IMG/VR virus record: IMGVR_UViG_3300050821_004652
Location: 1-64,000 of that record
Strand: one strand, 5' to 3'
DNA length: 64,000 bases
Source: a virus
This document shows positions 47,273 to 59,467 of the stretch, in pieces. The notes under the pieces were generated by a model that did no database searches, was not told the DNA's origin, and saw only the letters and a program-made list of their open reading frames with translations. The position numbers were made by a program, and so were the translations under genes. Each line of letters opens with the position of its first letter. The stretch's first letter is position 1.

Positions 47273-47578
47273 CTACTCCTCTTCGGTGTCCTCATTCTCG
47301 ACGCGCATTTTCTGTAGCTGGATCTCGACCCGACAGGAACTGCCGTATTCGCCATCGCTTGCAGAAACGCTCGTCACTACGCCAAAGGCGCGTAGGTCGA
47401 TGGTATCCCCGACCGACGGCATCTCCAAATCCAGCTTCTCCATTTCCTTCTCGCAGAAGGAAATCCGGGTGCCATAGGGATAGACCGGACCTTTGGGGCG
47501 CGACGGCATCGACGGATAGGTGTCGACGACATCTTCGTCATTCATCTCAAGATCGACCATCGGACCTTTGAAACTCAT
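47273..47578 (-). CDS. conserved capsid-module protein
   Basis: 101 residues. PVYPYGTRISFCEKEMEKLD then MPSVGDTIDLRAFGVVTSVS and an acidic end. The pattern YPYG-x-RI-x-L then VGD then V-V-T-S-V-S is shared, as far as I know, by small phage proteins in capsid modules whose function is not settled. One beta-barrel-like domain. Confidence 0.6.
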   Translation of the reverse strand: MSFKGPMVDLEMNDEDVVDTYPSMPSRPKGPVYPYGTRISFCEKEMEKLDLEMPSVGDTIDLRAFGVVTSVSASDGEYGSSCRVEIQLQKMRVENEDTEEE

Positions 47579-47580
47579 GG

Positions 47581-47820
47581 CTACCTCTCGATTTCGTCAT
47601 CGCCTTTGGGACCTTGCTTGCCGAGATTGATAACCGGCAGCTTTTTCCCTTTGGCAACGTCATCCATCAGTTTCTTATTGGCCGCCCGCTCGGCATCCGT
47701 TGGCTCCTTGCGATCCTTGCTGTCCTTGTCCTGATCGCTTTCGTCTTCGTCATCCGCTCCCTGCATCGCCGCCAGCTTCAGGCTACGCGGGTTATCATAG
47801 AGCTTCGATTGCTTTGCCAC
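47581..47820 (-). CDS. small acidic protein with N-terminal LYDNPRS motif
   Basis: 79 residues. MAKQSKLYDNPRSLKLAAMQ carries the KLYDNPRS variant of a motif seen in four other proteins of this module (C-terminal in three of them). The rest is highly charged and disordered (DDEDESDQDKDSKDRKE). Probably a virion or assembly factor. Confidence 0.6.
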   Translation of the reverse strand: MAKQSKLYDNPRSLKLAAMQGADDEDESDQDKDSKDRKEPTDAERAANKKLMDDVAKGKKLPVINLGKQGPKGDDEIER

Positions 47821-47822
47821 CT

Positions 47823-48254
47823 TCAGGCCGCCGCAGGAGCGGCCGCCGGGGCGGCGCCAGCCTCAGCAACAGGCGCCGGCGCAGGAGTCGCGGCGCCCCC
47901 ACCGGCTTCCTCCGAGACCGCGCCCGGCCCGGCCGCCATTTCGGTGGCATGCTTGGACGCCATGGCATCGTGCTCATCCTGGTGGCGCTTGTGCATCTTG
48001 TCGTGCTCGGCCTTGTGGTTGCCGTGCATGTCGCGCCGCTCGGTGCGGTGACGCTCGTGCATCTCCTCCCGCTCCTGCTTATGGCGCTCGTGATGCCCCT
48101 TCTCTTCGGGCTTCGCCTCTTTGCCCTTGTCCGTGGGCTCGGGCGCCTTACCCTTTTCCTCGACCTTTTTCAGGGCAGGCTCTTGCGCCTTGTGCTCGCC
48201 GCGGGCCTTTTTCGAGGCGTCGCTGTCGTACATTTTCTCGCGGGCCATGATCAA
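47823..48254 (-). CDS. His-rich coiled-coil protein
   Basis: 143 residues. MIMAREKMYDSDASKKARGE bears the KMYD variant of the shared motif. A long His/Lys/Glu heptad region (HHERHKQEREEMHERHRTE) follows, then an Ala/Pro tail. Charged, extended, possibly DNA- or capsid-binding. ATGA overlap with the upstream gene. Confidence 0.6.
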   Translation of the reverse strand: MIMAREKMYDSDASKKARGEHKAQEPALKKVEEKGKAPEPTDKGKEAKPEEKGHHERHKQEREEMHERHRTERRDMHGNHKAEHDKMHKRHQDEHDAMASKHATEMAAGPGAVSEEAGGGAATPAPAPVAEAGAAPAAAPAAA

Positions 48255-48481
48255 TGCTCCGGGTGATGTCGCTGAGAACGCGGGTGAGGATACATCTTCT
48301 TCCGCCGGTGAGCCATTTTCTCAAAGGTCAACGCCAGGCGAGCTCGCTTGCCCTCTTTGCCGGGGGCGTCCTTTTCCTTCTCGGCATGCTCATGGACCGA
48401 CTCGCCCGCCTTTTCGGCCGACTTGGTGAAGGAACCCTCTTTCAGGTGCGCCTTCTGAATCCACTTTTTGCCCTTCGCCAT
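48251..48481 (-). CDS. small basic protein with C-terminal MYPHPRS motif
   Basis: 76 residues from ATG 48481 (GAGGAG). Lys-rich helix (WIQKAHLKEGSFTKSAEKAG) and the end HRRKKMYPHPRSQRHHPEH, the shared motif at the C-terminus. Possibly targets the capsid. Confidence 0.6.
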   Translation of the reverse strand: MAKGKKWIQKAHLKEGSFTKSAEKAGESVHEHAEKEKDAPGKEGKRARLALTFEKMAHRRKKMYPHPRSQRHHPEH

Positions 48482-48518
48482 CGGAACGCTCCTCGAGGCT
48501 ACGTCGCCCAGCGTCGAA

Positions 48519-48737
48519 CTAGGCATCGTGCTTGCGATGGGCGAAAGCGCCGCGGATCTTGCTATGGAACCAGCCACCAACAGAATCCGCGGCTACGCCC
48601 TCGTGATAAGTCTCCGCCGGCACGCCGTCATAGGAATAGAGGCCGCCGCCCTTGAACCGAATCCAAAGCGTCGTGCCCTCATGGCCCATCGCCTGGATAT
48701 TCTTGCTCTGCACGGGGGTGAGATGCGGAATTTTCAC
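48519..48737 (-). CDS. KTSC-domain protein
   Basis: 72 residues. VQSKNIQAMGHEGTTLWIRF then KGGGLYSYDGVPAETYHEGV and SVGGWFHSKIRGAF match the KTSC domain (S-x-x-I-x-A-x-G-Y/H, L-x-I-R-F, G-x-Y-x-Y-x-G-V-P). Its biochemical role is unknown. ATGA-coupled to the next gene. Confidence 0.8.
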   Translation of the reverse strand: MKIPHLTPVQSKNIQAMGHEGTTLWIRFKGGGLYSYDGVPAETYHEGVAADSVGGWFHSKIRGAFAHRKHDA

Positions 48738-48934
48738 TTCGTCGACCTCGGATGATCGTACATCTTCTCGCGCCGGTGCATCTTGTTGGCGTGCTTGTTG
48801 GCGGTCGCAATCGCGATACCTTCAGGCACGCCCTCTTTCAACATGGCGTTCGCCATCTCGGAAGCCTTGGCCGCCGACTTGCCCTTCAGCTTCTTATTGT
48901 GCCGCTTGGCAAATTCTTCCGGCGTCCAAGGCAT
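48734..48934 (-). CDS. small protein with C-terminal MYDHPRS motif
   Basis: 66 residues; ATG 48934 overlaps the upstream stop (TGATG). WTPEEFAKRHNKKLKGKSAA then KASEMANAMLKEGVPEGIAI is a known small phage/bacterial protein pattern (FA-x-x-HNKKL, ANA-L-x-x-G, EG-AIA-AN). It ends KMHRREKMYDHPRSTK with the shared motif. Confidence 0.65.
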   Translation of the reverse strand: MPWTPEEFAKRHNKKLKGKSAAKASEMANAMLKEGVPEGIAIATANKHANKMHRREKMYDHPRSTK

Positions 48935-49422
48935 CAGGTGGTGCGGATCCACACCGCCAGAGGCGCATTGAACATCCAGCAATACTTCGTGTTGGCGGTC
49001 AACGCGGTGACAGTGCCCAGGCCGAACGCCGCGAAAGCCTGTCCGGTATTGGCCGTCATCGTGACCGCAGTCTGCGTCTGACTATCCTCCACGCACACGC
49101 GCTGCCCGTCGCCCGGTGAGGCCGGCATCGTGATGGTCCCGGTCGCGAGCGTGCCCGCCGGATTGAGATAGAGGAAGCTGACAAACTTCGGAACCGTGAT
49201 CGTGAACGCGGTGAGCGGCACCTGGTAGGAATACTGCTCGATACCGGCGACGCCACCCGGAGGCGCGTACACGGCTTGAGCGCTCGGAGCGCTCAACGGC
49301 ACAACCTGTACCGAGTCGGTCTGACTGATGGCCCCGATCTGCGGCACAGGAACGCCCTGCGCGAGTGCCCAGCCGGCAAAAGCCAGGAGCGCGCCGGTAG
49401 CGAGGATAGCGAGCTTCTTCAT
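48934..49422 (-). CDS. secreted beta-domain protein in the capsid module
   Basis: 162 residues. Clear signal peptide MKKLAILATGALLAFAGWAL then AQ. The C-terminal half (GTLATGTITMPASPGDGQRV, then MTANTGQAFAAFGLGTVTAL, WMFNAPLAVWIRTT) is the beta-sandwich seen at the ends of phage adhesins and decoration proteins. The combination with a Sec signal is odd. Confidence 0.65.
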   Translation of the reverse strand: MKKLAILATGALLAFAGWALAQGVPVPQIGAISQTDSVQVVPLSAPSAQAVYAPPGGVAGIEQYSYQVPLTAFTITVPKFVSFLYLNPAGTLATGTITMPASPGDGQRVCVEDSQTQTAVTMTANTGQAFAAFGLGTVTALTANTKYCWMFNAPLAVWIRTT

Positions 49423-49433
49423 ATGACGATCTC

Positions 49434-50147
49434 CTAGTTGAGGATCAGGTAGTTGTAGGTACTGGTGTCGGACGCCGTGCCGGACACGGTAAAGCCAGTG
49501 CCAGGCGTGATGGTCAAGACGTGCGGCGAGGCGCCGACAGTACCACCCACCGTCTTGAGGGTGAAAATGATCACCGAGTTGGCCGTGACGCGCGAGTCGG
49601 TCACGGTCACCGCGCCACCGCCCGTCAGTGCGACATAGGTGCCGCTCGGCGCCGTCGGCATCGACTGGTAGAGCCCGACCATCGTAATCGCGCTCAGGCT
49701 CGTCAGGGTGACCAGGAAGACAACCATGCTGTTGCTCTGCACGGTGTTGATTCCGGACACAGTGACGCCAGTGCCGCCGGCGATCGTGGCCGTCGCGTTG
49801 GTCGTGTTTTCGTAGAAGTAGAGGAAACTTTGACCGACATAGGGGTTGGGGATTCCGGCGATGATGTGCGCCGCGGTGTCGGTCGTGTCCGTGAATGCCG
49901 TGTTGCTCTGCGAGCCGCCGCGCTGGGTAACCTTGCCGACAATGCCAGCCGCCGTGATCGTACCAGCGCCTACGGTGTTGAGCGCGGTGATAACGGGTGT
50001 TCCGCCATTGGCACCAAGGAAGAACTGATCGAGGGTCGACAGCGCCACGATGCAGGAAACTTCTCCCGCAAAGATCGGCAACGACATCGAGCCCAGAAGC
50101 TGAGCGAAGGTGAGATTTTTGGCGCCGGGGACAGGAGCAATGGCCAT
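49434..50147 (-). CDS. virion beta-repeat protein, unknown
   Basis: 237 residues, almost entirely Thr/Gly/Ala/Val-rich beta strands (GAGTITAAGIVGKVTQRGGS, GTGVTVSGINTVQSNSMVVF, VTVTDSRVTANSVIIFTLK). The last matches phage structural beta modules. Probably a head or fibre decoration. Adjacent to two other structural genes. Confidence 0.6.
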   Translation of the reverse strand: MAIAPVPGAKNLTFAQLLGSMSLPIFAGEVSCIVALSTLDQFFLGANGGTPVITALNTVGAGTITAAGIVGKVTQRGGSQSNTAFTDTTDTAAHIIAGIPNPYVGQSFLYFYENTTNATATIAGGTGVTVSGINTVQSNSMVVFLVTLTSLSAITMVGLYQSMPTAPSGTYVALTGGGAVTVTDSRVTANSVIIFTLKTVGGTVGASPHVLTITPGTGFTVSGTASDTSTYNYLILN

Positions 50148-50155
50148 GGGAACCT

Positions 50156-51049
50156 CTATGAAATAGCTGGTGTTTGCAGCGATACGCTCGCCTGGCCCGT
50201 CGTCGACATGCGGTATCTTACTGTGGTGTTCGCGACGCCGGTATAGGCAAGGCAGTTGAGGCGATAGAGCATCCCGGCTTCGGGATCACCGAACGACAGC
50301 GAAAGCGGCTTCGTCAACGCCCACTGCGCTTCCGTTCCATCGCCGCCCAGGCCGCAGGCGATCCAGTGCTTGCCGCCGTCGAAGCTGCGCTCGAGTTGCA
50401 GGGTGAGGTTGATCGGAGTCGCCGGCCCCATGATGACGCCCGTCGAATCGGCGCCTGACACGCCGATCGCATTTCCCGTCGGCGCGAACTCTATCAGCAC
50501 CGGGCCGCCCGCGGCTGGCGGCGGCGCGGACGTGGCGGCCGCCGAAGCAGTCAGCGTAAACGTCGTGTTGCTGGCAGCAAGAATGGTGGTGCCCGAAGGG
50601 AAATACGGGCTGTTCAGGATCGTGGCGCCGATCAGCGTCGTGAGATCGGCCGGCTGGGTCGGACCGCCGGTGATCGGCGGCGGGATGCTGATCGTGGCGG
50701 ATCCGTTGGTGATATTCCCCGCCCAGAACTGCGGCATGAAGGCCGCCACAAGCGATGCGGTGCCCCCGCCCGAGAAAACCGTCGCGCCAGGCGGGATGTT
50801 CGCGCCCACCAGGGTGTCACCGTTGGAAACGCTCGTGCCGCTCGCGGCCGTGATCGATGTCGATCCTTTGGTCGTGGTGAGCGTGTCGGAGAGCTCGCCC
50901 CACACGACGACGTTCATCGGCCCCCACGCGGTAAAGGCAGCGGACGGCCCGACGCCCGCGAACGTCCCTACGATCAGGGCGTTCGCGCGATCCGGCGAGC
51001 CGACGTTCTTGTTGGAACCGCTGACCCCAGCTAGTGAGGGAATTCCCAT
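50156..51049 (-). CDS. virion structural protein, unknown
   Basis: 297 residues, beta-rich. An Ala/Thr/Ser repeat (TTTKGSTSITAASGTSVSNG) occurs near residue 60. The C-terminal part NLTLQLERSFDGGKHWIACG then YRLNCLAYTGVANTTVRYRM resembles a phage baseplate/decoration beta sandwich (R-S-F-D-G-G-x-x-W). Function inferred from place only. Confidence 0.6.
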   Translation of the reverse strand: MGIPSLAGVSGSNKNVGSPDRANALIVGTFAGVGPSAAFTAWGPMNVVVWGELSDTLTTTKGSTSITAASGTSVSNGDTLVGANIPPGATVFSGGGTASLVAAFMPQFWAGNITNGSATISIPPPITGGPTQPADLTTLIGATILNSPYFPSGTTILAASNTTFTLTASAAATSAPPPAAGGPVLIEFAPTGNAIGVSGADSTGVIMGPATPINLTLQLERSFDGGKHWIACGLGGDGTEAQWALTKPLSLSFGDPEAGMLYRLNCLAYTGVANTTVRYRMSTTGQASVSLQTPAIS

Positions 51050-51052
51050 GAA

Positions 51053-51808
51053 CTACGAGACGCCTTTCGGGGCATTGGTGATCGCCTTGCGGGCAACCGT
51101 GCCCAGCACCGCGACCTCCGCCTGTGTGTGATCGTTCACGCCGACGATGCCAAGATCGTCGCTGAAATTCGGCTCTGCCGCCACATGCTGCCGCTTGGGC
51201 GGATCGCCCTTCACGACAAGGCCCTTGGCGGTGACCCACAAGGGGCGCGTGTCGGCGGTCGGCACGAAGACGGAGTGGCCGCCGGTAGTCGCCTTCCACG
51301 CGGCAAAGATCGCCTTGGCCACATCGTTGATGGGGACCATCGCGTCATTCGGCACGCCCGTGTAGAAAATCTCCACCGAGACGGCCACCTTGTCGACGAG
51401 GCGATAGGGCTCGATGAACCGTTCGTTGAGATAGACCTTGGAGATCAGCTTGTACTCCGGCCTGGTCGCGCCCTCCTGGTGAGCCGCCGTCAGGAGCTTG
51501 TCCATGCGCTCCGCTGCCGCCTCGCGCGCAGCAACCTCCTCCGGAGAGAGCGGCTTGCGATGCTGGCCCTGCTGACCGATCGCCGCCATGTTCATCGACA
51601 GCTTGCTCAACACCTGTTCGAGCAGATCGACGGCATTGGTGCTGACCGCGAGGCCCGCAGGCGGCTCCGCAGGCGCCCCTTCCGGCGCGGGTGTAACCGC
51701 AGCGAACATTTCCGCCTTGAACTGCTCCATGGCGGCTTTGACACGCGCGTTGACCGCCTCCTCGAACTCAGGCGTTTCGATTACCTTCTTGCGACCAGGA
51801 CTGGTCAT
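51053..51808 (-). CDS. virion-module protein, unknown
   Basis: 251 residues. N-terminal helices (ETPEFEEAVNARVKAAMEQF), a conserved-looking middle (SPEEVAAREAAAERMDKLLT) and a C-terminal beta part. It does not match a named domain I know. It lies between the cement protein and structural genes, so capsid or head completion is possible. Confidence 0.55.
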   Translation of the reverse strand: MTSPGRKKVIETPEFEEAVNARVKAAMEQFKAEMFAAVTPAPEGAPAEPPAGLAVSTNAVDLLEQVLSKLSMNMAAIGQQGQHRKPLSPEEVAAREAAAERMDKLLTAAHQEGATRPEYKLISKVYLNERFIEPYRLVDKVAVSVEIFYTGVPNDAMVPINDVAKAIFAAWKATTGGHSVFVPTADTRPLWVTAKGLVVKGDPPKRQHVAAEPNFSDDLGIVGVNDHTQAEVAVLGTVARKAITNAPKGVS

Positions 51809-51844
51809 AGCTGCTCCTTGTGCGCCAGAGAGCGGCGCGGAAGT

Positions 51845-52387
51845 TTAACCCTTCACCGCGAAGTTGGCGGCGGCGAACTTGTTGTTGAGCGTGGGCGTGC
51901 TCATGGTGACCATCGACCAGGCGATCGTGCCCGCCGTGAATGTGGCCGACGGCGTGAACAACAGGCTGATGAAGCGTGGATTGAAACCGTCCGGATATTC
52001 CGGCGGCCAGTCGAAGCGGCCAATGAAGCCGGAATTCGCCGGTCCATTGGCCACAAGCTGCGCAACGGTATAGGCCGGCGACTGGACGAAGGTCTGCCAG
52101 GGGCCGGGAATGCCGCCGCCGGCGTCGATAGCGCCCTGCACCGCGATGGTGAGAGTGCCGCTGCCGGCAAAGGTCGTACCGATGGCGGAGATGAGCAGCG
52201 GCCGTTCGCGGCCGACACCCAAGTCCGCTCCGAACACGGACGCATTGCCGATGATGGTGCCCGCAACCGGCGCCGTCACGCCAATGCCCAGGCCGAGCTC
52301 GTCATAGATATTCGAGCGGACCGCGGCGCTGGTGATGGCGAGGTTCGAGCCATAGGGCAGGAAGTTGACGAGTGAGTCGGTGAGCAT
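51845..52387 (-). CDS. Bbp16-like capsid cement protein
   Basis: 180 residues. MLTDSLVNFLPYGSNLAITS, then LGVGRERPLLISAIGTTFAG and TLTIAVQGAIDAG, a later QLVANGPANSGFIGRFDWPP and FISLLFTPSATFTAGTIAWS match the Bbp16 family of BPP-1-like phages. In that family the protein forms trimers that cement capsomers. It lies just downstream of the major capsid gene. Confidence 0.8.
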   Translation of the reverse strand: MLTDSLVNFLPYGSNLAITSAAVRSNIYDELGLGIGVTAPVAGTIIGNASVFGADLGVGRERPLLISAIGTTFAGSGTLTIAVQGAIDAGGGIPGPWQTFVQSPAYTVAQLVANGPANSGFIGRFDWPPEYPDGFNPRFISLLFTPSATFTAGTIAWSMVTMSTPTLNNKFAAANFAVKG

Positions 52388-52423
52388 GTGCGCTTTCTCC
52401 TAGAGAACTGGATACGACGGCCC

Positions 52424-53473
52424 TTACGTCAGGGCGCCTTCAGTGTTGGTAAGCTGATCGACCACCTTGATCGGAATGCCGCGGTACCCGGTGATCGGCA
52501 TGCCCGCATAGTCTTTCATCTCGAGCAGGACGTTGCGATCACGAATCGCCTGGATGTCGAGCGCATGACGGAGCGTGCGGTTCATGTAGAAGACCGGATG
52601 CACTCCATAATCCGCCAGCGGCGCGTCCGTCTTGTCGACGCCCGAAGTGGTGCGGGAGAGCTTCGGGAACAGCAGGAGCATTTGCCCCATGACCACGAAG
52701 AGATCTGGCGGCGTCGGGCCGAACAGGCCGACAGAGCCGGTGGTGGTGTCGAGGTTGGCGTAGCGCACGCCGTAGCGCCAATCCTTCGGGCAGAGACCGG
52801 CCTGCTGACGGAACCAGGAGGTGTACGCCTCGAAACGGTTGCCGAGAGAGTCGAAGCCGGGCGTGACGTCGCCCTTGTCCTCCATATCCAGGCCCGCCTT
52901 GGACCCTTCCGGGAAAACGCCGGTGATGGTCTCCGGACCCCAGCCAAGCAGCCACATCGAGCAGTTGGACGAACCTGTTCCGCCGCCGTTCAGCACGTTG
53001 GTCGCGTTCTGGGCGTTGGCGGCATTGATGGTGTTGTAGAATGGGCTGAAGCCCATGAATTCGATCGGCGTGAGTGACGTGTTGCCGTAGAAGAACGTCT
53101 GGACGATCGTCTGCGACATGCCTTCCAGGAAGGCCGCATCTTCCGTCTCGCGGAAGCGCTGGAGATCGCCGGAGTGCTCGCCCAGCGCGCGGTCCACCTG
53201 GCTGTAATCCTCGAGCATGCCCATGTCGATGCGCGCCTTCGCGGTGGTCGACTTCGAATAGGGCACGCCCATGTTGTACGAGCGCCAGGAGCCCGCCGGG
53301 ATCGACGTCCGGAAGACGAATTCATGCGTGGTTCGGCCGTTCGCCTTCACCCACGGAATGTCGTCATAGAAATCGTTGCACTGAGACAGCATCTCCGCGA
53401 TCTCGGGGATCTTGCCCTCCGGATCGAGGCGGGAAGCAACGTCGACCATCGTCGGCCATGAACCAGTCGCCAT
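52424..53473 (-). CDS. major capsid protein (BPP-1-like)
   Basis: 349 residues. Features of the BPP-1/Bbp17-type HK97-fold capsid protein: LSQCNDFYDDIPWVKANGRT, then YSKSTTAKARIDMGMLEDYS, a DRALGEHSG turn, EDAAFLEGMSQTIVQTFFYG and NRTLRHALDIQA. Between scaffold and cement genes, in the expected order. SD AGGAG upstream. The stop codon sits in a small hairpin (GCCCT/AGGGC) with no U-tract, which may trim transcripts. Confidence 0.88.
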   Translation of the reverse strand: MATGSWPTMVDVASRLDPEGKIPEIAEMLSQCNDFYDDIPWVKANGRTTHEFVFRTSIPAGSWRSYNMGVPYSKSTTAKARIDMGMLEDYSQVDRALGEHSGDLQRFRETEDAAFLEGMSQTIVQTFFYGNTSLTPIEFMGFSPFYNTINAANAQNATNVLNGGGTGSSNCSMWLLGWGPETITGVFPEGSKAGLDMEDKGDVTPGFDSLGNRFEAYTSWFRQQAGLCPKDWRYGVRYANLDTTTGSVGLFGPTPPDLFVVMGQMLLLFPKLSRTTSGVDKTDAPLADYGVHPVFYMNRTLRHALDIQAIRDRNVLLEMKDYAGMPITGYRGIPIKVVDQLTNTEGALT

Positions 53474-53495
53474 TTCAAACTCTCCTGTTCAGAAA

Positions 53496-54410
53496 CTAGC
53501 TTTTCGCCTTTTGAGAAGAAGGATGGTTGTAGATCAGGTCACGACGGCTCACGTTCGGGCCGCGTCCGTTGTCTTTCGGCACGCCGATCTCCGCCGACGG
53601 CACCGGAGGCTCGTCAAGAAACCGCGCCACGTTGTGAAGCATGCGCCACATGACCGGATGATCGCCGGAGCCGGTGACGCGGAAAAATTCGGAGGCAGCC
53701 TTCAGGTCCGCCGCGTAGCGCTTGGTGCCAGGCTTGGCAGAGCTCACCAGCAGATCACGCATGCGCGCGACGGCCTGCTTGGTGGTTTCGTACCCGTTGC
53801 CGCCAAGCTCCGGATCGGCCTGGATCTCTTTCTGCCAGGCCGCGCGAGTGTCGTTGAACTGCTTGTGCTGATGCTGGCCGACTTGCGCGGCGTAGTCCTT
53901 GATCGCCTGCAAATGAAAATCAATCAGCGGCTGGACGTTCGACGGATCGGCGCGGAAATTGTCCAGCGTTTCGTGAAGCTGGGTGCGGCGCTCGTCCGGC
54001 AGCGTCAGGAGATTTTCTGGGATCTCGTATTTGTATTCGACTTTGGGAAGCTCTGCCGGCTTAGGCGGCTCCGCCGGCGGCGCTTCCGTCGGTTTGTCGT
54101 CCGCCTTGACTTCAGCCGGCTTGACCTCGGCGGGTTTGACCTCGGCAGGCTTCTCTTCCGGCTTGACCTCGCCAGGCGCATCGACGGTCTCGAGCAGCGA
54201 CGGTGTTTCGACAACCGTCTTGGGCTCTTCGGCGACTACAGGCGCCGGTGCGACAGGCGGCGCGGCAGGCGGAGTCTCGACGACCACCGGCGCAGGCGCA
54301 GCAGCCACGACCGCCGGTGCGGGCGCAGCGCTTTCGGCCGGAATGCTCGCAGGCGGAACCGCGGCGACCGGGACCGGGGCGTCGGCGTCCACTTTGGCCG
54401 GATCAGGCAT
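53496..54410 (-). CDS. scaffolding protein
   Basis: 304 residues. The first 125 are a Pro/Ala/Glu disordered region with a thrice-repeated PAEVK unit. The rest is helical (PDERRTQLHETLDNFRADPS, NVQPLIDFHLQAIKDYAAQV). The C-terminal 15 residues contain SRRDLIYNHPSSQKAKS, a variant of the motif shared with four small proteins downstream. Position directly upstream of the capsid gene, acidic tail and coil fit a scaffold. C-terminal helices of scaffolds often bind coat protein. Confidence 0.75.
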   Translation of the reverse strand: MPDPAKVDADAPVPVAAVPPASIPAESAAPAPAVVAAAPAPVVVETPPAAPPVAPAPVVAEEPKTVVETPSLLETVDAPGEVKPEEKPAEVKPAEVKPAEVKADDKPTEAPPAEPPKPAELPKVEYKYEIPENLLTLPDERRTQLHETLDNFRADPSNVQPLIDFHLQAIKDYAAQVGQHQHKQFNDTRAAWQKEIQADPELGGNGYETTKQAVARMRDLLVSSAKPGTKRYAADLKAASEFFRVTGSGDHPVMWRMLHNVARFLDEPPVPSAEIGVPKDNGRGPNVSRRDLIYNHPSSQKAKS

Positions 54411-57075: not shown

Positions 57076-58929
57076 CTAACGTCCTTTCGGGAACGCTCCG
57101 GAACCGGCAATCGCATCGAGCGCCGACCCATTGTTGAGCGAGGTTTCCGAAAGAGTCTTCGCAGCCTGGACGGCGGCCATCGCATTGCCAGGCGCCGTCG
57201 CCGCGGTATGCGCCTGCTGCGTGGCCTGTGCCCGCGCCTGATCGTGCTGCTGCACCTGATCATCCGTGAACAGAATGTGCGTCCGCATGTGGGTAGCCTT
57301 GGCGTAGTCCTTGGCCCACTGATCGAGGTTCACGGTGCGCAGCGGATCCGGCAGCGTAGCCGCCTTCGCGGCGCTGGAGGCGGCGCCCATCGCAGCCAGG
57401 AAATCCTTCAGCGACACCGCATCCGAAGCCTGCATCGCCAGGCGCATGATCGACTGATATTCGATCTTGAACGTGCGCCCTTGGAGCGATGCCGGCATGT
57501 CCGGGATCATTCCGCGGCGCTGGCAGATCGCGAAGATGCGATTGATCGCCGGCGTTGCGACTTCGGTCTCATGGAGCTCGACCAGGGGCCCAAGCTGCTG
57601 CAAGCGCTCGAGATCGCGCTTGGTAAGCTCTAGCTCATTCTTCGGCTGCACGCCTTCCATACGCGAGATCGCCAGGAAGACGTCGACGAAGAGGCATTTT
57701 TCAGTGCGCAGGTTCACCGCCGCAATGTCGGCCGTGATGCCCTGGAGCCATACGGGATTCGGCTCGAACAGCGCCCAGAAGCCTTTCTTGCCGCCCGCCG
57801 TGTTCATGTAGGTGATGCGGGCCGGCATGATCGACGCGGGCTCGTTCTTCAATTCGGGGTCCGCGCCCATCGGCGGGCGCACGCCCTTTTCGATGAATTC
57901 GGCCTTGCGCAGCGATTCTAGCTGGACCTGTTTCGCATCACCCAGCGCGTCCATGCAGAACGACCGGCCATAGGGGTCGTTGCCGACCAGGCCGCCGCGC
58001 GCCACGACGAAGGGCTGCTCATGGAAACCGCGGATCGACAGCGGCTGGCTCCCCATGTCGCCCTTGACCCAGTAGACCTCGCGAAAGGGAAACAGCCTGG
58101 AGACCGGATAACGGTCCGTCTTCTGCCCCTTCGGTCCCATCAGCGGGTAGTTGGGCTCGATGATGTGGCAGATCACGACCTCGGTATCCATCGTGCCATC
58201 GTCGAACATCTTCTGGATCGACTGGGTGCATTTTTCGTAGCCGAACCATTCGACCGTTTGCAGGATCGTGAAGGTGTAGTCCCGGTGCAAGGTGTTGGTG
58301 TTGAGGCGCGAACCGCTGCCCAGCGTGTACTCGCCAGGGCACGGCAGGTAGACCCGGATCACGTCTTCCTTGTCTTCGTAGATGATCGGCGGCGACGTCC
58401 CGAACACTGTCTCGTCCTGGAACATTTGCGCCATTTGCACGAAGAAATTGCTCTGGTGCATCACGGTGTCGATGACATCGTAGACGCGCTCGAGCCAGGT
58501 CTTGCCGTCTGCCGGAATATCGTCGGTCTCCATGCCGACAATGCCCACGCCGAACCATTTGCGCGATGGCGACATGAGCCCCGTCCACAGCCCGGAGGCA
58601 CATACCCGGACCGCCTGTAGGCCGGTCGAATCGATGATGGCTTCGTTGACCGGCCGTCCGCGCCACATGCGATTCGCGACGATCGTCAGCCACTGCCAGC
58701 GCCGCGGCATGAAGAATTCGGCCAGCACCTGCCAGTGCAGGAGCCAGGACCAGCGCCAGGTGATCAGCGCGCGCCGGCGCCGTTCGACGTGATTGTAGAG
58801 AAGCGGCCACCAGGAAGCGACAAGCTGCGGCAGGACGTTGCTCTGCACCGGCATATTCGCCAGCGAGGACGAGTCGACGTCCTGGTAAGCGGCGTGAGCC
58901 TCTTCGCGGAGTGAAGCGCCGTCGGGCAT
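57076..58929 (-). CDS. podovirus portal (head-tail connector)
   Basis: 617 residues. WRWSWLLHWQVLAEFFMPRR, then VRVCASGLWTGLMSPSRKWF, then FVQMAQMFQDETVFGTSPPI and IYEDKEDVIRVYLPCPGEYT are the conserved portal segments of T7/BPP-1-type connectors. The end is a Gln-rich coil (DDQVQQHDQARAQATQQAHT). It lies between the terminase block and capsid genes. It forms the dodecameric DNA gate. Confidence 0.88.
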   Translation of the reverse strand: MPDGASLREEAHAAYQDVDSSSLANMPVQSNVLPQLVASWWPLLYNHVERRRRALITWRWSWLLHWQVLAEFFMPRRWQWLTIVANRMWRGRPVNEAIIDSTGLQAVRVCASGLWTGLMSPSRKWFGVGIVGMETDDIPADGKTWLERVYDVIDTVMHQSNFFVQMAQMFQDETVFGTSPPIIYEDKEDVIRVYLPCPGEYTLGSGSRLNTNTLHRDYTFTILQTVEWFGYEKCTQSIQKMFDDGTMDTEVVICHIIEPNYPLMGPKGQKTDRYPVSRLFPFREVYWVKGDMGSQPLSIRGFHEQPFVVARGGLVGNDPYGRSFCMDALGDAKQVQLESLRKAEFIEKGVRPPMGADPELKNEPASIMPARITYMNTAGGKKGFWALFEPNPVWLQGITADIAAVNLRTEKCLFVDVFLAISRMEGVQPKNELELTKRDLERLQQLGPLVELHETEVATPAINRIFAICQRRGMIPDMPASLQGRTFKIEYQSIMRLAMQASDAVSLKDFLAAMGAASSAAKAATLPDPLRTVNLDQWAKDYAKATHMRTHILFTDDQVQQHDQARAQATQQAHTAATAPGNAMAAVQAAKTLSETSLNNGSALDAIAGSGAFPKGR

Positions 58930-59258
58930 CAGACCGTCCCGGAGAGTGTCTTAGCTCCACCCGTAGTCGACGGCGGCGGCGCCCCTTGTGGGCTCGTGTC
59001 GACGGTATTGGCGTAGCCGGCAACGGCGCCGGCGGCGGCTGCGGCGCTCGCCTTGACGGCCTGGGCGGCAGCGGTCGGTCCCGCGCTCGCCAGGGTAGGC
59101 GGCGGCTGCGGGGCAGCCGGCGCGGGAGGAGGCGCCGGAGGCGGCGTGATCTGCTGCGGCGGGGGAGGAGGCGGCGGCGCAGAGAAATTGAACGCACCGC
59201 CACCGCCGGAGCCGCCACCGCCGAACAGGGAACCGATACCGCTGAAAACCGCGCTCAT
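58929..59258 (-). CDS. Pro/Gly-rich protein, unknown
   Basis: 109 residues from ATG 59258, ATG overlapping its neighbour. A Gly stretch (GSLFGGGGSGGGGAFNFS) is followed by a polyproline run and Ala-rich helix. Probably an extended or disordered virion factor. Confidence 0.55.
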   Translation of the reverse strand: MSAVFSGIGSLFGGGGSGGGGAFNFSAPPPPPPPQQITPPPAPPPAPAAPQPPPTLASAGPTAAAQAVKASAAAAAGAVAGYANTVDTSPQGAPPPSTTGGAKTLSGTV

Positions 59259-59467
59259 CAGCGCCTCGTATGGAGTTTGTCGGCTTCGAATTCGGTGCAG
59301 ACGAACAACATGACCTCGCGCCGCCTGATGAATTTCCGGCTCACCACGTCGAAAACCTCTCGCCGGCAGCGGGGATTGCTGAAATCCGTCATCCACATGA
59401 TGGCGATCAACCCGTCGGGGTTTTGCTTGGCAGAGACAATGCCCTCAAAGCGGTCCAGGTCGATCAT
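59258..59467 (-). CDS. 69-residue unknown protein
   Basis: MIDLDRFEGIVSAKQNPDGL then IAIMWMTDFSNPRCRREVFD. Alpha/beta with a basic C-terminal helix. Sits directly after the large terminase gene; could be a small terminase-associated factor. Unknown. Confidence 0.6.
   Translation of the reverse strand: MIDLDRFEGIVSAKQNPDGLIAIMWMTDFSNPRCRREVFDVVSRKFIRRREVMLFVCTEFEADKLHTRR

Follow-up and report, generated by a model that had tools for sequence, protein, structure and literature searches.

A scaffold C-terminal peptide of epsilon15/BPP-1-type podophages recurs on unrelated small proteins and may target them to the capsid

We describe a short terminal peptide, here called the tag, that is found on five proteins encoded in a podophage head module like that of epsilon15 and BPP-1. 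The module lies on the minus strand of the stretch of DNA analysed here (the window), which makes up 64 kb of a 69,084-base IMG/VR virus record and comes from a phage whose coat is of the epsilon15/BPP-1 type (GP7). One of the five is the scaffolding protein and the other four are small proteins. We consider it likely that the tag is a coat-docking, capsid-targeting peptide that the small proteins have borrowed from the scaffold. The tagged proteins and their tags are as follows (L numbers are our labels for other loci).

53496..54410, minus strand: scaffolding protein, 304 amino acids, epsilon15 gp6/BPP-1 bbp18 family (phrog_458, E 2e-9)
53514..53537, minus strand: C-terminal tag LIYNHPSS of the scaffold, residues 292-299
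48734..48934, minus strand: small basic protein, 66 amino acids, net charge +8, with a C-terminal tag; homologues in L002, L003 and L188 are tagged too
48743..48763, minus strand: C-terminal tag MYDHPRS of the 48734..48934 protein
48251..48481, minus strand: small basic protein, 76 amino acids, net charge +10, phrog_20603 family (E 2.5e-7), with a C-terminal tag
48275..48295, minus strand: C-terminal tag MYPHPRS of the phrog_20603 protein
47823..48248, minus strand: K/E/H-rich protein, 141 amino acids, with an N-terminal tag; N-tagged homologues in L001, L003, L008, L019, L195 and L196
48213..48233, minus strand: degenerate N-terminal tag MYDSDAS of the 47823..48248 protein
47581..47820, minus strand: small charged protein, 79 amino acids, with an N-terminal tag
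47782..47802, minus strand: N-terminal tag LYDNPRS of the 47581..47820 protein

A preliminary description of this DNA had placed the peptide on these five proteins and called them otherwise unrelated. Both statements hold: all five are found on the minus strand, the fifth with only a divergent form of the tag that its homologues confirm, and once the tags are removed the bodies show no significant similarity to one another. Gene starts at 48934, 48481 and the ATG at 48248 were set from homologues. Among the 605 six-frame open reading frames (ORFs) of the window (66,406 residues), the strict pattern [ILM]Y[DNP][HN]P[RS]S is matched exactly four times (mean of 200 shuffles, 0.0), and every match is terminal and lies in the capsid module (scaffold, 48734-48934, 48251-48481 and 47581-47820). 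A narrowed degenerate DNA pattern scan gave four loci, and the feature recurs when the termini of relatives are scanned. The fifth terminus, KMYDSDASKK (47823-48248), is without the proline; we accept it as a divergent tag because homologues carry fuller versions at that position, namely MYDHASSKK (L003), LYDHASSNK (L008), LYDAPASKK (L001) and LYDHPSSGK (L196). The two C-tagged small proteins are strongly basic, and the two N-tagged proteins are near neutral. N-tagged proteins of L001 have a start similar to that of the 47581..47820 protein (MADRAKLYDHPRSS, MIDRAKLYDNARSP).

To follow the scaffold tail across the phage family, loci with a GP7 coat were gathered from viral and genome collections and dereplicated until 128 remained, all below 90% in coat identity, which yielded 124 scaffolds. 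The preliminary description had made its proposal depend on the presence of the motif in homologous modules, and in 120 of these 124 scaffolds [ILMVF][YF] stands 1-19 residues from the C-terminal end. The residue after the aromatic is P in 53, G in 24 and D in 22 (99 of the 120). Two of the remaining four keep a terminal Tyr (L235 RRYINTQ, L113 RRRYGSN), and the other two are probably wrong ORFs. Named isolates of Pseudomonas, Acinetobacter, Vibrio, Xanthomonas, Nostoc, Klebsiella and Stenotrophomonas phages agree, sometimes with F or W for Y (W in phages AF and BUCT708). Tyr294 of the window scaffold stands in one of the few columns that hardly vary when 51 scaffolds are aligned (mean column identity 20%). 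AlphaFold2 models a confident helical core for this scaffold (residues 139-266); the motif lies in the tail beyond it, which has low confidence and is accordingly predicted to be disordered. On these sequences, the near-universal C-terminus of epsilon15/BPP-1-type scaffolds is thus a disordered tail that bears aliphatic-[Y/F]-[P/G/D]. The form YDHPRS noted earlier is real in the window's clade, whose variant is YDHP[RS]S, and is a local version of this broader motif; the presence of a tag of this type reaches well beyond the window. In the open-licence papers searched we found no earlier description of the scaffold C-terminal motif or of copies on other proteins.

Other phages of the family also carry their own scaffold tail on additional proteins. 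In phiV10 the scaffold ends AAEVLYGK and a protein resembling epsilon15 gp10 ends AAETLYGNGGE; in epsilon15 itself the gp6 scaffold ends DLISAFYPKK and gp10 ends DAFYPDGEDD (ELKDAFYPDGEDD); in BPP-1 the endings are RRLYAASNMNP for the scaffold (ARRLYAASNMNP) and QRLYGASSMSA for the gp10-like protein (AQRLYGASSMSA). In Caulobacter phage Jess A, which grows on C. vibrioides CB15, the scaffold ends AKSLYPNSNHN and the gp10-like protein AAKLYKDTD. L019 has SPLYTHPTS twice, L181 has MYSEESRQKM, IYEKSRSKM and an N-terminal MYSVESKKKM, and L235 has RRYINTQGM, RRYGGTQAM and KRYSNP. Three adjacent small genes of L041 are tagged (KMYPKLATNDGD, TIYPKQGKK and KLYPNQK), as is its gp10-like protein. ORF ends similar to the scaffold tail of their own phage (anchored, score of at least 30) number 52 on the coding strand and 0 on the opposite strand. 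At score 26, which admits some chance matches (67 coding-strand ORFs vs 6 on the opposite strand), at least one tagged non-scaffold ORF is present in 45 of the 124 dereplicated loci. Among gp10-like proteins, 31 of 51 dereplicated representatives carry the tag, including those of epsilon15, phiV10 and BPP-1. The tags stand at either terminus and the tails are unstructured in AlphaFold2 models of both proteins modelled, which fits a linear motif.

The tag can be separated from the proteins that carry it. Two small-protein families were searched with tag-less queries, and whole records were then searched for a GP7 coat. Homologues of phrog_16160 are tagged in 7/7 GP7 records and in 0/44 others (Fisher 8.6e-9), and still in 0/14 when non-GP7 records are confined to those over 40 kb. 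For phrog_20603 the tag is present in 22/27 GP7 records and 5/40 others (1.6e-8); the five exceptions are truncated contigs from the same type of phage that have a gp10-like gene and end where the coat gene is expected, and four of the five 'untagged' members in GP7 records still end in a Tyr-containing tail. The tails of the phrog_20603 proteins of L235 and L023 visibly match their own scaffold's variant, those of L184 and L204 less clearly. These counts indicate that the tag is an add-on that accompanies the GP7 coat/scaffold system and not a part of the small-protein families. As a separate observation on phrog_20603, its domain is embedded in K/E-rich proteins of 750-830 amino acids in other phages (L207, L214, L216-L218, L234, L258).

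The tags also change together with the scaffold. The likeness of phrog_20603 tails to their own scaffold was reached by 0 of 20,000 permutations, and with shuffles restricted to coat clusters, which reduces the effect of relatedness and does not remove it, p was 0.00025 at a cut of ~60% identity and 0.003 at 65%. Such likeness might be a functionless relic, if the 3′ end of the scaffold gene had recently been duplicated to give the small genes. The tags of a single phage do closely resemble one another, and two tags of L003 have the codon run AGC CGA ATG TAC GAT CAC CCA in common. However, 78 of 129 identical tag residues within one phage are specified by different codons, which argues that the peptide is kept and is not a recent DNA copy. 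Moreover, the tags sit on the N- or C-termini of unrelated families, homologues outside the GP7 system are without them, and the parallel change holds across distant phages, so that we regard common descent as extremely unlikely. These comparisons give good support to a binding partner common to the scaffold and the small proteins, and to selection that acts on the peptide and not on the DNA.

The simplest reading of a motif that small proteins have in common with the scaffold, and that is tuned to it, is a shared docking site; scaffold C-termini dock on the coat in several viruses. In the mechanism we propose, the tag would be a short linear docking motif, consisting of an aliphatic residue, an aromatic (Y, less often F or W), [P/G/D] and a few further residues, all within a flexible tail. 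It would belong in the first place to the scaffolding protein of epsilon15/BPP-1-type podophages, which has the motif at its extreme C-terminus and which, while the procapsid is being built, most likely docks by this tail on the inner surface of the GP7 coat. Small proteins of unrelated families would have gained copies at either terminus; by using the scaffold's docking site they could be built into the procapsid and become internal head proteins. Once the scaffold has left, some of them may remain beside the DNA and be ejected in the manner of the internal proteins of T4. Tag and docking site would drift together, and all copies in one phage would then follow the local variant. The preliminary description had proposed a coat-binding tag that recruits small proteins; its recruiting peptide is supported by the scaffold C-terminus, the GP7 dependence and the co-change. 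The coat is its probable binding partner, and the tagged proteins would lie inside the head, from which some may be ejected.

Several observations weigh against this proposal. The coat and the scaffold core are not separable as receptors by co-occurrence, given that the scaffold bodies of 121 of the 124 loci are homologues of one another, and the docking partner could be the portal or the scaffold core. Many loci yielded no tagged protein besides the scaffold, and the gp10-like protein is untagged in the window's clade. Covariation of gp10-like tails is weaker (p 0.0017-0.03 in restricted shuffles), and the identification of epsilon15 gp10 in virions by proteomics has been described as putative, with its location disputed (PMC9207676). 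Finally, the bare motif [ILM]Y[PGDSTAN] is barely enriched at gene ends (5.3% vs 3.8%), and for this reason the argument rests on likeness to the scaffold of the same phage and not on the bare motif.

If the tag bound another partner of the scaffold, either the portal or the scaffold's helical core, the small proteins would be recruited to the scaffold core and not to the coat. The same sharing, covariation and GP7 dependence would be expected, as coat, scaffold and portal are inherited together, and an affinity for the core has been ascribed to T4 proteins with a capsid targeting sequence (CTS; PMC9026906). A tag at the scaffold's own end nevertheless suits docking to something else better than self-binding, and we judge a portal or core partner unlikely, though worth keeping in mind beside the coat.

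The preliminary description had offered a cleavage or processing signal as its second explanation, and a signal for processing or degradation by a protease during maturation would suit the terminal position of the peptide. The scaffold family is, in addition, named 'protease/peptidase' in public phage records (NC_005357, NC_004775) and in PHROGs (phrog_458). Yet among the S78 (PF04586) and ClpP-type (PF00574) prohead proteases, the types to which the search was directed, no match was found in seven records including the window's record, BPP-1, phiV10 and epsilon15, and the controls were positive; this makes a processing signal unlikely. The BPP-1 coat and cement proteins are, moreover, reported to be uncleaved (PMC3863775). 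The scaffold model is helical and has no Foldseek match with a protease fold: a search of the PDB returned nothing significant, and the best match in BFVD, a 'putative protease' of an uncultured phage, is probably a member of the same scaffold family. A sequence search for a solved structure of this family found none. With a helical model and no protease domain found, the name 'protease' for phrog_458 looks wrong and is probably a misnomer, and we hold a processing signal to be very improbable.

Coat docking by a borrowed scaffold tail, which we favour, has parallels in three known systems. In the herpesvirus scaffold/protease pair, one common C-terminal coat-binding tail brings the second protein inside. 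The likeness lies in a scaffold C-terminal peptide that is common to a second protein; the herpesvirus genes overlap, whereas in the phages unrelated genes have separately placed copies. The nearest system in function appears to be the T4 CTS, a ten-residue peptide common to the small basic internal proteins IPI-IPIII that alone carries foreign proteins into the prohead, and that is N-terminal and cleaved by the gp21 protease (PMC9026906). Both are peptides of about ten residues on otherwise different, small, basic proteins, a likeness of known function in T4 to proposed function here, and in the phages too the same short peptide occurs on several unrelated head-module proteins. Unlike the CTS, the phage tag is N- or C-terminal, forms the scaffold's own C-terminus and occurs where no S78 or ClpP-type prohead protease was found. 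Encapsulin targeting (cargo-loading) peptides are short and terminal, with hydrophobic anchors, and dock cargo inside an HK97-fold shell (PMC7925596). The phage tag resembles them in these anchors and in its terminal position; it differs in being aliphatic-aromatic-[PGD] and not LGI-like, in a docking on the coat that is proposed here, and in its setting, as encapsulins have neither scaffold nor DNA packaging and the phage coat lies in a module with scaffold and connector. By analogy, the tag would work like the CTS or the encapsulin peptides and would be a member of neither group. The window scaffold itself belongs with the epsilon15 gp6/BPP-1 bbp18 family (phrog_458) and has the same C-terminal motif.

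The remaining genes of the head module that bear on these assignments are listed below.

57076-58929, minus strand: head-tail connector, upstream of the scaffold
52424..53473, minus strand: major coat protein, Pfam GP7 (PF20911, E 1.1e-96)
51845-52387, downstream of the coat gene: cement-like gene, weak match only (phrog_427, E 0.001)
48519..48737, minus strand: KTSC-domain protein (PF13619, E 3e-13), untagged, amid tagged genes
47273..47578, minus strand: epsilon15 gp10-like protein (PF21628, E 3.3e-7), untagged in the window

The coat has relatives in the PDB in BPP-1 (3j4u) and epsilon15 (3j40). The immediate 5′ neighbour of the coat gene is the phrog_458 scaffold gene, which is also the arrangement in BPP-1, phiV10 and epsilon15; the weakly matched cement gene is downstream and the connector upstream. 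Gene order and coat type are both those of an epsilon15/BPP-1-type module. A KTSC-domain gene apparently also stands amid tagged genes in the relatives L002 and L008. Between terminase and connector lies a small gene (58929-59396, minus strand) whose window version ends TTGGAKTLSGTV. In many isolates (L338-L349) its counterpart closes with a second conserved C-terminal peptide, (G)KTLLG[GQAS]; Xanthomonas phage 10KY502B has it twice, as KTALGV and KTVLGS. A GP7-type coat gene is also present in the 39 kb genome of Limnohabitans phage DC33 (PQ492659.1, L343), which its record classifies as an inovirus, a label that looks wrong.

The 3J40 model sets epsilon15 gp10 on the outer shell; when this density was re-examined, a protein of 130 residues was fitted to it and the 111-residue assignment was called incorrect (PMC9207676). 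The scaffold-type tail of gp10 would fit an internal position, as we predict. We lean, by a little, towards a portable encapsidation code across the whole family, in which small proteins would enter the head by means of a 6-10 residue copy of their own scaffold's tail at either end, tag, tail and docking site would co-evolve, and epsilon15 gp10 would be internal cargo. If coat docking by the tag is correct, it would explain how epsilon15/BPP-1 phages choose accessory head cargo, and the tag hints at where epsilon15 gp10 and the unknown small families phrog_20603, phrog_16160, phrog_2423 and phrog_16759 may be located. It would also provide a sequence rule by which more internal head proteins could be found; those of T4 include proteins that serve host take-over and anti-restriction. 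Being short and independent of a protease, such a tag would in addition be an easy means of bringing proteins into a T=7 phage shell.

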